From NCBI RefSeq assembly GCF_002305875.1, contig NZ_CP022098.1, positions 2,418,001 through 2,482,000 on the forward strand: a DNA stretch of 64,000 nucleotides, written 5' to 3'. This stretch comes from Cystobacter fuscus (GTDB lineage Bacteria > Myxococcota > Myxococcia > Myxococcales > Myxococcaceae). The notes under the pieces were generated by a model. It had not been told where the DNA came from, made no database searches, and saw only the letters and a program-made list of their open reading frames with translations. Position numbers and translations under genes: made by a program. This document shows positions 2,595 through 58,735 of the stretch, in pieces (the stretch's first letter is position 1; every line of letters begins with the position of its first letter).

Positions 2595-3308
2595 CTACCT
2601 GCGTCCCTGGCGGGATCGCTGGGGTGGCGGGCGTCTCACGGGCTGGCGTCCGCCCGCGGGCTCCTCGAACAGGGTCGGGCCGAGCAACTCGAGGCACTCG
2701 GCGAGAACCTTGCTCGCGTCGCGCTTGCGCCCCGCGGAGAACGGCTGCTCCATCGCGAGGCGTCCCGCGGTGGCCAGGACGGCGCCGGCCAGGCGCGCCC
2801 GCTGCGAGTCCGGGGAGAGACCCAGCCGCTCGGCGACGACGCGCGCGAGCGCGACCTCCGCGTCGGTGAGGATCTGCAGCCACACCGCGCGGAAACTCTC
2901 CGTCTCGTTCACCACGGAGAGGAAGTTCTCCCAGTTCAGGGTGTTCTCCTGCGCGAGGCTCTGGCTGAGCGCCTCCTCCATCGTCTCGCGCAGGGGCTTG
3001 TCTCGGGGGGCGGCGCGCATGTCGGAGACGATGCGCGCGAGCGACGCGTCGACGACCGGGCGGATGGCGTCCTCCTTCCGGGGGAAGTACCGGTAGAAGG
3101 TCCGCTCGGACAGGCCCGCGTGGGCCGCGAGTTCCTTGACGGAGAAGTCGCTCGTGCGCTCCCGCAGGAACAGGTCGATGACGGCGCGCGAGGCCTCGAG
3201 CATCGCCTGGTCGCGCCCCTCGCGCGGTTCGAGGGTGAGGCGCGGATGCTCCCGGTCCGCACCTGCGGCCGGTCGTTCCTGTGGGCGAGGACTCACTCGC
3301 TGGGGCAT
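2595..3308 (-). CDS. TetR-family transcriptional regulator
   Basis: Translation probably starts at MPQRVSPRPQ; the open frame continues 37 codons further but runs into the operator region. Of 237 residues, an N-terminal HTH at about 50-80 reads DFSVKELAAHAGLSERTFYRYFPRKED, the TetR recognition-helix pattern. The helical remainder is the ligand-binding and dimerisation domain. The C-terminal tail is very rich in Pro, Arg and Gln. The gene diverges from the Coq4-P450-P450 operon, and two phased palindromes lie between them, so it most likely represses that operon and itself. The ligand is unknown; a P450 substrate or product is a reasonable guess. Confidence 0.88.
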   Translation of the reverse strand: MPQRVSPRPQERPAAGADREHPRLTLEPREGRDQAMLEASRAVIDLFLRERTSDFSVKELAAHAGLSERTFYRYFPRKEDAIRPVVDASLARIVSDMRAAPRDKPLRETMEEALSQSLAQENTLNWENFLSVVNETESFRAVWLQILTDAEVALARVVAERLGLSPDSQRARLAGAVLATAGRLAMEQPFSAGRKRDASKVLAECLELLGPTLFEEPAGGRQPVRRPPPQRSRQGRR

Positions 3309-3382
3309 GGCGTGGAGCCTAACAAGTCGTGGCGGGAACTGTCTCCTGGCCCGTCGCGCACCCATCCCCACCCTGACGCATG

Positions 3383-3419
3383 TGGCGGTTTCTGCCAGTT
3401 CCGTGGCATAAACTGCCAC
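3383..3419. promoter_or_regulatory. Two phased inverted repeats, candidate TetR operators
   Basis: TGGC-N7-GCCA occurs twice: at 3383-3397 and, extended by one pair on each side to GTGGC-N7-GCCAC, at 3403-3419. The cores at 3383 and 3404 are 21 bp apart, two helical turns, so dimers would sit on the same face of the DNA. They lie between the divergent TetR gene and the Coq4/P450 operon, 53 bases before the latter's ATG. This arrangement is typical of an autoregulated TetR repressor. Binding is inferred. Confidence 0.7.
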
Positions 3420-3425
3420 GAAGTC

Positions 3426-3448
3426 CAGGTGCCTTCATGGGGCACCTG
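3426..3448. promoter_or_regulatory. Perfect 8-bp inverted repeat in the operon leader
   Basis: CAGGTGCC (3426-3433) and GGCACCTG (3441-3448) are exact reverse complements separated by 7 bases. The repeat sits 23 bases before the Coq4-like ATG and just before the GGAGA ribosome site. It could be a third operator of a different specificity, or an mRNA hairpin affecting translation. Confidence 0.5.
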
Positions 3449-3471: not shown

Positions 3472-4182
3472 ATGAACTTCAGCTCACCCACCTCACGCAT
3501 CGAAGACGGCCTCTTCCTGCCCGAAGGCGCATCCCTGTTCACCCGCCTGCGGGTGGCGGTCCGGGCACTGAAGGTCCTCGAGAAGCGCCCCGATGACGGC
3601 ATCGCGGCGCCGTTGTTCAACGCGAGCCTCGACGGCGACGTCTTCCAGCGGCTCTGCTCGGAGCTGGCGAAGAGCGAGGACGGCCGGGAGTTGCTCGCCG
3701 CTCGCCCCAGCCTCCAGGGTCGCAGCATCGACCTCGATGCGCTCGGCCGGCTCCCGGCTGGGACGCTCGGGAACGCGTTCGCCCGCTACTTCTCGGACAA
3801 CGGCATCCACCCGTTCGAGAGCCCGTACGAGGTCCGCAACGACGTGGACTACCTCGTCAAGTGGTACCGGGAGACGCATGACCTTCACCACGTGGTGACC
3901 GGCTACGCGACGGACGCCGTCGGCGAGATGGAGCTCCAGGCCTTCGTGGCCGGCAACCTTGGACTCCGCACGAGCGTCCTCATCCTCCTGTTCGCCGCGG
4001 TGCTTCGGCCGCATGGCCTCCCTCCTTTCTGGAAGTACGCGCGAAGGCTGCGCGCGGCGTACCGGCGGGGCCAGCGGTCCGAGAAGCTTGTCCGCATCCG
4101 GTACGACCACTTTTGGGCGGCGACGGTCGAGGTGGTGCGCCAGCGGCTCAGGATTCCCTCTTCGACCCCGGCCCGCGCGTGA
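3472..4182 (+). CDS. Coq4-family protein
   Basis: The 236-residue protein carries the defining Coq4 motif HDxxHx11E at His136-Asp137, His140 and Glu152 (in ETHDLHHVVTGY...GEMELQAF). This forms the metal-binding centre of the family. Mitochondrial Coq4 takes part in ubiquinone synthesis, recently assigned to C1 oxidative decarboxylation of the ring. Bacterial relatives also occur outside ubiquinone pathways. GGAGA lies 6 bases before the ATG. It is the first gene of an operon with two P450s (35 and 43 base gaps), opposite a TetR gene. Since myxobacteria are generally regarded as menaquinone users, a role in tailoring another ring compound with the P450s is more likely than ubiquinone synthesis; that is inference. 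Confidence 0.82.
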   Translation: MNFSSPTSRIEDGLFLPEGASLFTRLRVAVRALKVLEKRPDDGIAAPLFNASLDGDVFQRLCSELAKSEDGRELLAARPSLQGRSIDLDALGRLPAGTLGNAFARYFSDNGIHPFESPYEVRNDVDYLVKWYRETHDLHHVVTGYATDAVGEMELQAFVAGNLGLRTSVLILLFAAVLRPHGLPPFWKYARRLRAAYRRGQRSEKLVRIRYDHFWAATVEVVRQRLRIPSSTPARA

Positions 4183-4217: not shown

Positions 4218-5597
4218 ATGAATCCAGCACTCGCCATCGACACGCCTCGCCCCCTCAAGGAGTACGCCCCCTCCACCCTCGAGCTGCTCAAGGCGATCCG
4301 GCGAGAGGGGTTTCTCGGCTGGATGACGAACACCTGGCGCCAGCATGGGGATCTGCTCCGCATCCGGATGGGCTCGCAGTCGCTCGTGCTGGTGACCCAC
4401 CCGGACCACGTGCGCCACGTCAACGTCACGCGCCGCGAGAGCTACGACAAGGGCGAGAGCTACGACGTCCTCCGCGAGCTGCTGCTCGGCAATGGCATCG
4501 TCACCGCCACCGGGGAGGACTGGCGCTGGCAGCGCAGGCTCATGGCGCCGTTCTTCACCCCTCGTGGCGTGGAGAAGTTCTATCCCATCTTCCTCTCCGA
4601 CACGCAGCAGCTCATCGAGCGCTGGCGGTCCCAGCTCCAGGGCTCCGGCCGCCCTGTCGAGATGCTCGACGAGATGATGCGGGTCACCGCCTCCGTCATC
4701 CTCCACTCGGTCTTCAGCACCGAGTCGGACGAGGCCCTGCTGCGCATCAAGAACTCGATCGAGACGATGGTTTCCCACATCTCGGAAACGGGGATGCGCC
4801 CCGTCCAGGTGCCCCAGTGGGTGCCCACCCCCGGGAACCTGCGGTTCCGCCGGGCCCATAAGCTCGTGACGGCCTACATCCGCGAGCTCATCGCGCGGCG
4901 CCGGGCCATCCCCACCGAGCAGTGGCCGGATGATCTGCTGACGAAGATGATGACGATCCGGGACGAGGAGACGGGGAGGCTCATGGCGGAGCAGCTCCTC
5001 ATCGACAACGGCCTGACCATGTTCGCCGCCGGGCATGAGACCACGGCGCGGACGCTCTCGTTCTTGTGGTACGCGCTGTCCCAGAACCCGGAGGTGGAGC
5101 GGCGGCTGCACGTCGAGCTGGACTCGGTGCTGGGCGACGCGCCTCCGACGCTCAACGACTTGAAGAAGCTCCCCTACACCCTCCAGGTCGTGAAGGAGGT
5201 CCTCCGGCTCTATCCGGCCGCGCCGATGTACGCCCGTGACGCCGTTGCCGACGACGAGCTCGATGGGGTCCGCATCCCGGCCGGCACGAGGATGATTGTC
5301 TTCTCCTACGGCACCCACCGGCACCCGGCGTTCTGGGACGAGCCGGAGCGCTTCGATCCCGACCGCTGGTTGCCCGAGCGCGAGGCCGCGCGCCATGCGC
5401 ACGCCTACCACCCGTTCGCCGCCGGACCGCGCATCTGTCTGGGCAATAATTTCTCCCTGCTCGAGACACACGTGATGGCGGCGATGCTCGCACGCCGCTT
5501 CAAGCTGCGCCTGAAGCCCGGCCACGTGCCGCGAATCGACATGTTCGGCACCCTCGGCTCGAGCAACGGCTTGCCGATGCTGATCGAGGCGCGGTGA
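4218..5597 (+). CDS. Cytochrome P450 (first of pair)
   Basis: A 459-residue soluble P450 starting at MNPALAIDTPRP. Seen motifs: I-helix oxygen-activation AGHETTA (271-277), K-helix ExxR in KEVLR (Glu327-Arg330), PERF (376-379) and the haem loop FAAGPRICLG (400-409) with Cys407 as thiolate ligand. The AGHETT I-helix and the length resemble class II-like bacterial P450s (CYP102-haem-domain/CYP110 type), many of which act on fatty acids or terpenes. No reductase domain is fused, so redox partners must come from elsewhere. It follows the Coq4-like gene by 35 bases. Substrate unknown; family assignment needs a phylogeny. Confidence 0.93.
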   Translation: MNPALAIDTPRPLKEYAPSTLELLKAIRREGFLGWMTNTWRQHGDLLRIRMGSQSLVLVTHPDHVRHVNVTRRESYDKGESYDVLRELLLGNGIVTATGEDWRWQRRLMAPFFTPRGVEKFYPIFLSDTQQLIERWRSQLQGSGRPVEMLDEMMRVTASVILHSVFSTESDEALLRIKNSIETMVSHISETGMRPVQVPQWVPTPGNLRFRRAHKLVTAYIRELIARRRAIPTEQWPDDLLTKMMTIRDEETGRLMAEQLLIDNGLTMFAAGHETTARTLSFLWYALSQNPEVERRLHVELDSVLGDAPPTLNDLKKLPYTLQVVKEVLRLYPAAPMYARDAVADDELDGVRIPAGTRMIVFSYGTHRHPAFWDEPERFDPDRWLPEREAARHAHAYHPFAAGPRICLGNNFSLLETHVMAAMLARRFKLRLKPGHVPRIDMFGTLGSSNGLPMLIEAR

Positions 5598-5640: not shown

Positions 5641-6858
5641 ATGAATGCCTTCAACGGACAGAAGTTGGACAAGATCCCCGCGCACGTTCCGCCGGAGCTG
5701 GTCTACGAGTACGACATCGCCGGGGATCCGCGGGTGCTCGAGGATCCGCACGCCCGGATGCGCTCCCTCATCCTCGAGGCCCCTCCCATCTTCTTTTCCC
5801 CGTTCAATGGGGGCCATTGGTTCGTGACCCGGAAGAAGGCCATCGTGGACATCACGATGAACCCGGAGGTCTACAGCAGCAAGAACCCGGGGGAACACGG
5901 CAAGGAAGCAACGGGGGGCTTGTCGCTGTTGCCCATCTCGGTGGATCCGCCGCAGCACACCCTGTACCGGACCCCGCTCAACCAGCCGCTGTCAGCCAAA
6001 TCCGTTGCCGGACTGGAGACGGCGATCCGGGCCATGACGAACGAGCTCATCGACAAGGTGCTCGCCGCGGGACGCTGCGACTTCCTCCCGGACATCGCCG
6101 AGCCGCTGCCCGTCACGTTGTTCCTGAAGCTGGCCGGCATGCCGACCAATCGCCTGGCCGAGTTCCGTGAGCTGGCCTTGCAGGCGGCGTCCGCCACGGT
6201 GGAGCCCGCGACTCGCGCGGAGACGTTCAAACGCATCGCGGGAATCCTGGCGGAGACCATCGAGGCCCGGCAGGAGAAGCGCGAGGATGACCTGATCAGC
6301 CGGCTGCTCGACGCGAACCTCGACGGCCGCAACCCCACGTTCCAGGAGATGATGGGCTACAGCATCCTCCTGTTCCTCGGGGGGCTGGACACGGTGGTGA
6401 ATGCCCTGTGCTTTGGTGTCCGGCACCTGGCGCGCGATCAGGAGTTGCAGGCGAAGCTTCGGGCCGACCCCAGCCTGCTGCCCGGAGCCATCGAGGAGCT
6501 GCTGCGGCTCTATGGTATTGCGTCCATTCCCCGGCACGTGACGCGCGACACGGTCTGCCATGGCGTCCAGTTCAAGCAGGGTGACGCGCTGTTGTTGCTC
6601 CTGCCCGCGGCCAACTACGACGACACGGCGTTCCCCAACCCCGAGCAGTTCATCCTGGGCCGGACGGAGCAGCACATGACGTTCAATACGGGTCCGCACC
6701 GGTGCGTCGGCCTGAACCTGGCCCGTCTGGAGATGAAGGTGTTCTACCAGGAGTGGTTGAAGCGCGTGCCGCCGTTCCGGCTGGACCCCCAGGCCCCGCC
6801 GCGGTTCTCGGGTGGCTTCGCTCTGGCCCTCACGAGCCTGCCGCTGAGCTGGGCATAG
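5641..6858 (+). CDS. Cytochrome P450 (second of pair)
   Basis: A 405-residue soluble P450 of the shorter bacterial class I type. Motifs: I-helix LFLGGLDTVVN with Asp250-Thr251, K-helix EELLR (Glu286-Arg289), and haem loop FNTGPHRCVG with Cys355. Where typical P450s have FGxG, this one has FNTG. The GGLDT I-helix is reminiscent of the P450cam and CYP111 type. Sequence similarity to the adjacent P450 is low by eye, so this is not a recent tandem duplication but two different enzymes in one operon. GAGAGG lies 7 bases upstream of the ATG. It needs ferredoxin and ferredoxin reductase, neither encoded here. No terminator is evident after it. Confidence 0.93.
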   Translation: MNAFNGQKLDKIPAHVPPELVYEYDIAGDPRVLEDPHARMRSLILEAPPIFFSPFNGGHWFVTRKKAIVDITMNPEVYSSKNPGEHGKEATGGLSLLPISVDPPQHTLYRTPLNQPLSAKSVAGLETAIRAMTNELIDKVLAAGRCDFLPDIAEPLPVTLFLKLAGMPTNRLAEFRELALQAASATVEPATRAETFKRIAGILAETIEARQEKREDDLISRLLDANLDGRNPTFQEMMGYSILLFLGGLDTVVNALCFGVRHLARDQELQAKLRADPSLLPGAIEELLRLYGIASIPRHVTRDTVCHGVQFKQGDALLLLLPAANYDDTAFPNPEQFILGRTEQHMTFNTGPHRCVGLNLARLEMKVFYQEWLKRVPPFRLDPQAPPRFSGGFALALTSLPLSWA

Positions 6859-57364: not shown

Positions 57365-58735
57365 ATGATGCGTCGCATCGAGACCGCCCTGTTCGCCGCC
57401 GTCTGTGCCGTGGTTTTCGTGGCCTGTTCCGCGTGTGGAGGGAAGGACAATCCCAACGGCCCCGTCAGCAAGACGAGCCAGTTCTTCCTGCCCACGGGCG
57501 AGCCCCGCAACACGGGGGATCCGCACATCCAGGCGGATGCGCAGGGCAACTTCCACATCGTCTACCCGGCCTACTCCCGGGGCGATGCCTACTACGCCTT
57601 TTGCCCGTCCAATTGCAGCTCGGTCGAGCAGGCCAAGGTGGTGCAGTTGGAGACGCAGGGCACGGTGGACAACGCCCGGGTGGCGGTCGGTCCGGACGGC
57701 AAGCCGCAATTGCTGCTCAATACCCACGAGCGCGTCTACTACGCCACGTGCTCGGGCGACTGCACCCAGCGCACCTCGTGGACGGTGACGCCCATCCTCG
57801 AGCATGGCGGCGAGCGCGAGGTCTCCGGAGACGCGTTCGCCGTCACGCCCCAGGGCAAGCCGCGCTTCATCATGCACAGCTACCGCAGCATCGGCATCGG
57901 GGCGCCGACTCCCGCGACCTTCTACGTGCAGTGTGACAACAACTGCCAGAACCCGGGGAGCTGGACCCAGTCGCAGATCGCCACGCGCAACTGGCAGATG
58001 GGCTCGCTGCGCTTCACCCCCTCGGGCCAGCCGCGTCTGGTCAAGGCGGAGCTCGTCGATGGCGGCAATCACCTGAGCTATTACTACGAGTGCGACACGG
58101 ATTGCTCGTCGGCCGTCAACTGGAAGGGCACGGCCCTCTACAAGACGTTCTACGGCTTCTCCGAGGCGGTCCGCATGTACCCGGCCATGTCGCTGCGGCT
58201 CACGAGCCAGGGCAAGCCGCGCCTGGCGCTGATGGGCGATGACGGCAGCGGCCGCAACCTGCTCTACCTGGAGTGCGACACGAACTGCACCTCCCCGGAG
58301 GGCTGGTTCGCGCAGATCCTCCTGCCGGCCAACGAAGGGGGCGCGCAGCTCAAGGCGGGGCTCGAGCTCGCGCTCGACAGCAAGGATCAACCGCGCATCG
58401 CCTACGCGGCGGCCTACAACATCGTGATTGCCCACTGTGACGCCAACTGCACCGACGAGACGAAGTCGAAGTGGAACCTGGCCAAGGTGGAGTTCGCCTC
58501 GGACATGGAGAAGGACAAGATCATCCCCTATCCCGACTGCAACATCGCGGGGGGCTGGTTCCTGCACAGTCCGTCGATCACCCTGGGCAAGGAGGGCCTG
58601 CCCCGGGTGGCGTACCGCGCGCAGGACATCAGCGGCGGTGGCTCGAATCCCGGCCCCGGTGAGATCAAGTGCACGGCGGGCGCGGACATGACGTTCGCCC
58701 GCTTCGCCCAGATCGACGAGCTCCGCGCGCCGTGA
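57365..58735 (+). CDS. Lipoprotein with seven Cys-pair repeats (beta-propeller-like)
   Basis: 456 residues; AAGGAG precedes two tandem ATGs. The signal ends FVAC, so it is a lipoprotein (a second Cys follows). The mature part is seven repeats of about 55-60 residues. Each has a strand like SLRLTSQGKPRLALMGDDG, then an aromatic-x-x-Cys-x3-Cys pair (ATCSGDC, VQCDNNC, ECDTDC, ECDTNC, AHCDANC and similar) and a Trp. The periodic G-x-P-R and Cys-x3-Cys look like a disulphide-pinned beta-propeller. No known family recognised. Probably a surface or periplasmic binding protein of myxobacteria. Converges on the C39 peptidase gene. Confidence 0.75.
   Translation: MMRRIETALFAAVCAVVFVACSACGGKDNPNGPVSKTSQFFLPTGEPRNTGDPHIQADAQGNFHIVYPAYSRGDAYYAFCPSNCSSVEQAKVVQLETQGTVDNARVAVGPDGKPQLLLNTHERVYYATCSGDCTQRTSWTVTPILEHGGEREVSGDAFAVTPQGKPRFIMHSYRSIGIGAPTPATFYVQCDNNCQNPGSWTQSQIATRNWQMGSLRFTPSGQPRLVKAELVDGGNHLSYYYECDTDCSSAVNWKGTALYKTFYGFSEAVRMYPAMSLRLTSQGKPRLALMGDDGSGRNLLYLECDTNCTSPEGWFAQILLPANEGGAQLKAGLELALDSKDQPRIAYAAAYNIVIAHCDANCTDETKSKWNLAKVEFASDMEKDKIIPYPDCNIAGGWFLHSPSITLGKEGLPRVAYRAQDISGGGSNPGPGEIKCTAGADMTFARFAQIDELRAP

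Follow-up and report, generated by a model that had tools for sequence, protein, structure and literature searches.

The 163-bp intergenic region between a tetR-family regulator gene and a divergent coq4-family gene carries two 17-bp palindromes, sites B and C, set 21 bp apart. As judged from sequence and conservation, this array is real and very probably functional. In our preferred reading, to which we assign a probability of about 85%, B and C are phased dimer operators through which the adjacent TetR represses the coq4/P450 promoter, while a third site, A, serves tetR autoregulation and a ligand induces the operon. The features are listed below, numbered in the window, that is, the whole stretch of 64,000 nucleotides analysed here.

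2595..3308, minus strand: tetR-family gene for a 237-aa SCO3201/MftR-like regulator, transcribed divergently from coq4 (Pfam TetR_N and TetR_C_14)
3316..3321, minus strand: possible tetR –10 hexamer TAGGCT, with an 18-bp gap to the –35-like edge of site A
3329..3345, plus strand: site A, GTGGCGGGAACTGTCTC, candidate operator for tetR autoregulation, lying 20 bp off the start codon of this gene
3382..3398, plus strand: site B, GTGGCGGTTTCTGCCAG, the first of the two phased palindromes, 17/17 columns invariant in 10 loci
3403..3419, plus strand: site C, GTGGCATAAACTGCCAC, the second of them, starting 21 bp after B, with perfect 6-bp arms, 15/17 columns invariant in 10 loci
3426..3448, plus strand: leader inverted repeat CAGGTGCC-N7-GGCACCTG, arms at 3426–3433 and 3441–3448
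3472..4182, plus strand: coq4-family gene opening the proposed operon (Pfam Coq4, 1.2e-27)
4218..5597, plus strand: cytochrome P450 gene, P450a (Pfam p450, 7.6e-90)
5641..6858, plus strand: second cytochrome P450 gene, P450b (Pfam p450, 2e-28)

By its position, P450b would belong to the same transcription unit; following P450a, it is full-length in genome G074, and only a C-terminal piece is present in G045 and G046. An alternative GTG start of tetR at 3419, giving 274 aa, was dropped because the extension is interrupted by a stop in locus L019. Genome G000 holds seven Coq4-family matches (E 1e-10), a high number for a family that takes its name from ubiquinone synthesis.

The preliminary description of this DNA had pointed to TGGC-N7-GCCA occurring twice at a 21-bp distance, and we recovered exactly this pair, TGGCGGTTTCTGCCA at 3383–3397 and TGGCATAAACTGCCA at 3404–3418, measured start to start. 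Site C is an exact TGGCA-N5-TGCCA palindrome, and site B carries G in place of the first A. Comparison of the two sites revealed that B agrees with the reverse complement of C at 14/17 positions and with C read directly at 11/17; thus, the 38 bp spanning both sites jointly form a near-palindrome (28/38). The exact pair occurs only once in the 12.35-Mb genome.

Orthologs of the TetR protein, at 79–84% identity, were found at 10 loci in nine of the 145 genomes of the order (E 1e-15); a search of 195 genomes of the phylum added none (E 1e-12). The best 19 candidates per genome were scored in the order and the best 14 in the phylum, so that distant orthologs could escape. These 10 loci were picked via the TetR protein and not via the motif, and they represent three genera of one family and hence are not independent. 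The B–C spacing is 21 bp in all of them. Across the 10 loci, 17 of 17 columns are invariant in B and 15 of 17 in C, against one of four in the spacer and none in the flanks (0/21 and 0/23); the flanks were compared in ungapped register, which understates their conservation where indels occur. A gapped alignment gave the same B–C block, with scattered conserved columns elsewhere, chiefly near site A and the start codons. Wherever the TetR–Coq4 pair itself is conserved, the repeats are present (7/7 loci); loss of the repeats at such loci, named in the preliminary description as a refutation, did not occur.

The regulator itself is a member of the TetR family. It scored 31.4 bits against the N-terminal TetR helix-turn-helix family PF00440 (cut-off 24), whereas its 60.5 bits against the MftR equivalog TIGR03968 lie far below the cut-off of 224.9. 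The predicted structure is all-helical (mean pLDDT 74.5), and the top rows of both Foldseek and VIA-align are TetR-type regulators. A single-sequence search of the PDB gave SCO3201 as the best match (E 1.2e-12), with EthR (6.5e-5) scoring above MftR (8.6e-4); with a profile of the 10 orthologs, MftR came fifth, ahead of EthR. The EthR operator is not known to be of the TGGCA-N5-TGCCA form. VIA-align also ranked SCO3201 first (Z 18.6, rmsd 2.8, 186 residues aligned), and MftR (Z 16.5, rmsd 2.6, 175 aligned) and 2rae (Z 15.9) tied behind it; in Foldseek, 2rae, a TetR, was narrowly on top. At residues 52–84 of the regulator, 30 of 33 positions are invariant among the 10 orthologs, and the segment RTFYRYF is shared with SCO3201. 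The mycofactocin radical-SAM family TIGR03962, used as a single marker, exceeded its cut-off in three of the 145 genomes, none of which is among the nine with the TetR; its best score in the genome of the window is 114.2 bits against 265.

The operators of these relatives offer an independent comparison. According to the available text of its report, SCO3201 of Streptomyces coelicolor binds TGGCAGATTCTGCCA (PMC7324645). The excerpted MftR report describes a DNase I-mapped operator that contains TGGCACTCGATGCCA, with the palindrome T-N2-GGCA-N5-TGCC-N2-A (PMC8728441). Site B matches the SCO3201 site at 13/15 positions, as does site C when read in reverse; 14/15 is reached by the second site of an additional array in genome G073, described below. 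The protein family and the DNA motif were derived separately; therefore, their agreement argues strongly for B and C as operators of this regulator class and weakly for A, which matches the SCO3201 site at 10/15 at best (11/15 for its ortholog consensus) and that of MftR at 8/15. The motif of MabR/FasR was rejected as a candidate, since it is given in the accessible part of its report as TTTTGT-N9-ACAAAA (PMC5541348). Taken with the 10/10 loci and the diverged flanks, this form of the sites supports the earlier reading of B and C as operators of the divergent TetR.

Site A is a third related 17-mer, overlooked in the preliminary description, and lies at the tetR end of the intergenic region. 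It is weaker than B and C and does not fit TGGCA-N5-TGCCA. It is present in eight of the 10 ortholog loci as GTGGC[AG][GC]GAACTGTCAC, the copy in the window has one base changed, and L016 in genome G048 is without it; there, site B occupies the position of A relative to tetR. In the nine loci that have it, A keeps a constant distance to the tetR start, within 1 bp, and its spacing to B ranges from 29 to 70 with no shared phase; thus, constant spacing is confined to B–C. A scan for promoters and terminators, including sigma-70-type promoters, returned none. Inspection of the 10 loci by eye found the tetR hexamers GTGACA exactly in eight and TAGGCT in six, with both in five and a spacing of 18 throughout. 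In the window they read GAGACA (–35-like) and TAGGCT, with the start codon 7–8 bp beyond, so that the tetR mRNA is perhaps leaderless. The overlap of site A with this putative –35 element suggests autoregulation.

Combining these data, we propose a putative model for the switch. Sites B and C would each accommodate a dimer of the divergently encoded SCO3201/MftR-like TetR. Because 21 bp corresponds to two turns of 10.5 bp, the two dimers should lie on the same face of the DNA, and the integral number of turns together with its retention in all 10 loci is the geometry expected of a two-dimer complex. In the three most compact loci, only 26–27 bp, including an RBS-like GGAG, separate the core of C from the start codon; thus, the core promoter very likely lies over B–C, with B near –35 and C near –10, which is the position of a repressor. 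We infer that TetR binds here, probably cooperatively, and blocks RNA polymerase, while the weaker and independent site A would cover the –35 side of the tetR promoter. A ligand would then free TetR and induce the operon. The available text on MftR names long-chain acyl-CoAs as its effectors (PMC8728441), and the part of the FatR report at hand describes TetR-family repressors of P450 genes that are released by fatty acids (PMC3814354). By analogy, the best guess for the ligand is an acyl-CoA, or some other hydrophobic metabolite connected with the P450 substrate.

Among the alternatives, the one that best survives, though we consider it unlikely, is that TetR activates coq4/P450, or that B and C are independent, non-cooperative sites. 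SCO3201 is reported, in the accessible text, both to repress and to activate genes (PMC7324645), which speaks for activation. Against it, the compact loci very likely have their core promoter over B–C, and TetR-type regulators less than 200 bp from a divergent gene are described, in the portion of the review available, as mostly repressors (PMC3511530). The spacing of 21 bp in each of the 10 loci also counts against this alternative.

The same compact geometry gives some room to a second alternative, namely that some sigma factor uses the conserved block chiefly as its core promoter and the palindromes are incidental, since promoter elements at or over B–C would also be conserved. Such a reading is improbable: a related palindrome is met again at the tetR promoter, in the form of site A, the motif is shaped like operators of related regulators, and a P450a relative in genome G075 lacks it. 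For sigma-54, whose consensus places GG and GC 10 nt apart, the distance found here is 8 nt and does not fit.

Across the order, array and regulator occur together. The consensus array, searched across genomes at the 21-bp spacing only and with up to three mismatches, occurs in exactly the nine of 145 genomes that hold the TetR ortholog. Ten of the 11 arrays adjoin a TetR ortholog; the eleventh was not counted for spacing, as it was found by a pattern requiring 21. The coq4 gene is absent from L013 and L017 and reduced to a remnant of its first codons in L021, and in these loci the array still stands directly before P450a. The earlier claim that the array controls the Coq4/P450 genes is thus supported for the role as TetR operator but not for Coq4 as the target per se, which is gone or a remnant in three of 10 loci. 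In G073, the operon is split into two loci, one with the order TetR–array–P450a (L096, G073:C7), where a 12-codon frame remains at the former start of coq4, and the other with the order TetR–array–coq4 (L100, G073:C1).

The eleventh array, at L090 3996–4031 in G073, is an orphan that precedes a P450 gene. None of the neighbouring ORFs scanned, among them those of a histidine kinase and of an AAA protein, was recognised as a TetR. This arrangement, in which the site may act in trans, is what favours a third alternative, in which a regulator encoded elsewhere binds B and C. We regard this as very improbable, given that array and TetR ortholog share the same nine genomes, that G073 holds two copies of the ortholog, and that the motif fits relatives of the adjacent TetR. 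Nor does the orphan array travel with its P450: it is absent at a G074 P450 that is 98% identical from residue 24 and lacks the first 23 residues. A regulator exchange is seen in G075 (L175 2780–3000), where a P450 80% identical to P450a has as its neighbour a TetR with a different C-terminal family, TetR_C_16. This P450 carries TGTAAAC-N4-GTTTACA, and no TGGC-N7-GCCA was present in the 140 bp scanned. This swap of regulator together with operator, a single natural control, ties the array to the present TetR and not to the target gene.

Shuffling bears on the last alternative. Among 20,000 dinucleotide shuffles of the 163-bp stretch, 172 gave at least one TGGC-N7-GCCA and one gave two, and none gave two at the 21-bp distance; in the window as a whole the motif occurs 10 times, against a shuffle mean of 2.58, and none of 100 shuffles reached 10. 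Chance inverted repeats in G+C-rich DNA, despite the 851 copies of the loose motif in this G+C-rich genome and a loose 21-bp pair with other inner sequence in 30 further genomes of the order, are a negligible explanation, already excluded by the conservation in 10/10 loci.

The leader repeat differs in status from B and C. It is indeed a perfect 8-bp inverted repeat, as first described; its inclusion in the operator array did not hold up, as it is present in only four of the 10 loci (L012, L013, L017, and L021) and does not carry the operator sequence. We accordingly rejected it as a fourth operator; the TGGCA-N5-TGCCA form is missing from it. Its hairpin shows one paired change in L013 (T-A to C-G), but the four versions fold just 1.0–1.6 sd below shuffles, with 12 to 31 of 200 shuffles folding equally well. 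No other exact copy was found in the genome and no T run follows the repeat. It may be a lineage-specific 5'-UTR hairpin.

Twin sites of other sequence were also seen in the order. The loose 21-bp twin occurs in 39 genomes; in 30 of them the inner sequence is different, and 20 of these 30 share the middle GGAGATTGG, which perhaps marks one conserved gene. Allowing up to one mismatch, GTGGCRNNAACTGYCAS is found at eight places, A and C included; among the other six, the sixth being at window position 57933, five were inspected, four of which lie in large ORFs, the fifth being L092. A regulon based on TGGCRN5TGCCA, with 25 loci sorted by ORF, was dropped because the same rule labelled B and C as coding.

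Other Coq4 genes present a varied picture. Those of G051 and G129, 62–64% identical, have no orthologous TetR beside them, and inspection by eye of their upstream regions showed a different palindrome pair, again 21 bp apart (reversed L105 4332/4353 and reversed L107 4921/4942); a third such Coq4, in G133, has no pair of this kind in the 500 bp viewed. Coq4 paralogs of about 50% identity (L111, L116, L117, L118, L122, and L126) have, by eye, GTTTAC-like upstream sites, suggesting that different Coq4 paralogs are under other TetR regulators. These upstream sequences hint that twin TetR-type operators are frequent before Coq4 genes, with a sequence set by the regulator. More broadly, TGGCA-N5-TGCCA might be the shared operator of a lipid-sensing clade of actinobacterial and myxobacterial TetR proteins, which in Archangium-type myxobacteria has turned into a movable, phased two-turn unit that goes with the regulator and not with the target, and is swapped whole for another palindrome when enzymes change regulator; we put this forward tentatively, as a possibility about which we are more doubtful than confident.

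In summary, the placing of this array among the operators of SCO3201/MftR-type TetR regulators, a kind of gene switch already known and ordinary, is well supported. The novelty lies in the myxobacterial pairing of regulator and target, in the constancy of the two-turn pair, and in the control provided by the regulator swap. No paper on this array was found by title or opening of abstract among the open-access papers listed, and the available part of PMC6997564, which notes that an Archangium P450 responds to methyl jasmonate, gives no link to the present locus. The analysis provides a concrete candidate operator for an uncharacterised regulator of myxobacterial P450/Coq4-like enzymes. It also suggests that one operator half-site is kept across phyla in SCO3201/MftR-type regulators, and the constant 21-bp spacing amid free sequence points to helical phasing as a question.

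Compared with known systems, the array is closest to that of SCO3201, the nearest solved relative, with which it shares the half-sites TGGCA-N5-TGCCA and their spacing; however, SCO3201 belongs to another phylum, is about 26% identical, and has, in the available text, a single palindromic site described and not a 21-bp pair. MftR of mycobacteria shares the TetR_C_14 domain and GGCA-N5-TGCC within a footprinted 27-bp operator, but it governs the mycofactocin genes via this one operator, is 19% identical, and has no phased pair described in the excerpted report. With FatR, as far as its accessible description extends, the present system would have in common the control of P450 genes by a TetR-family repressor (PMC3814354). 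The classical tetR/tetA pair, as outlined in the portion of PMC3511530 available, likewise places two palindromic operators between the divergent regulator and its target; the targets here are different, and a two-turn pair at the target promoter is combined with a separate site at the regulator end.
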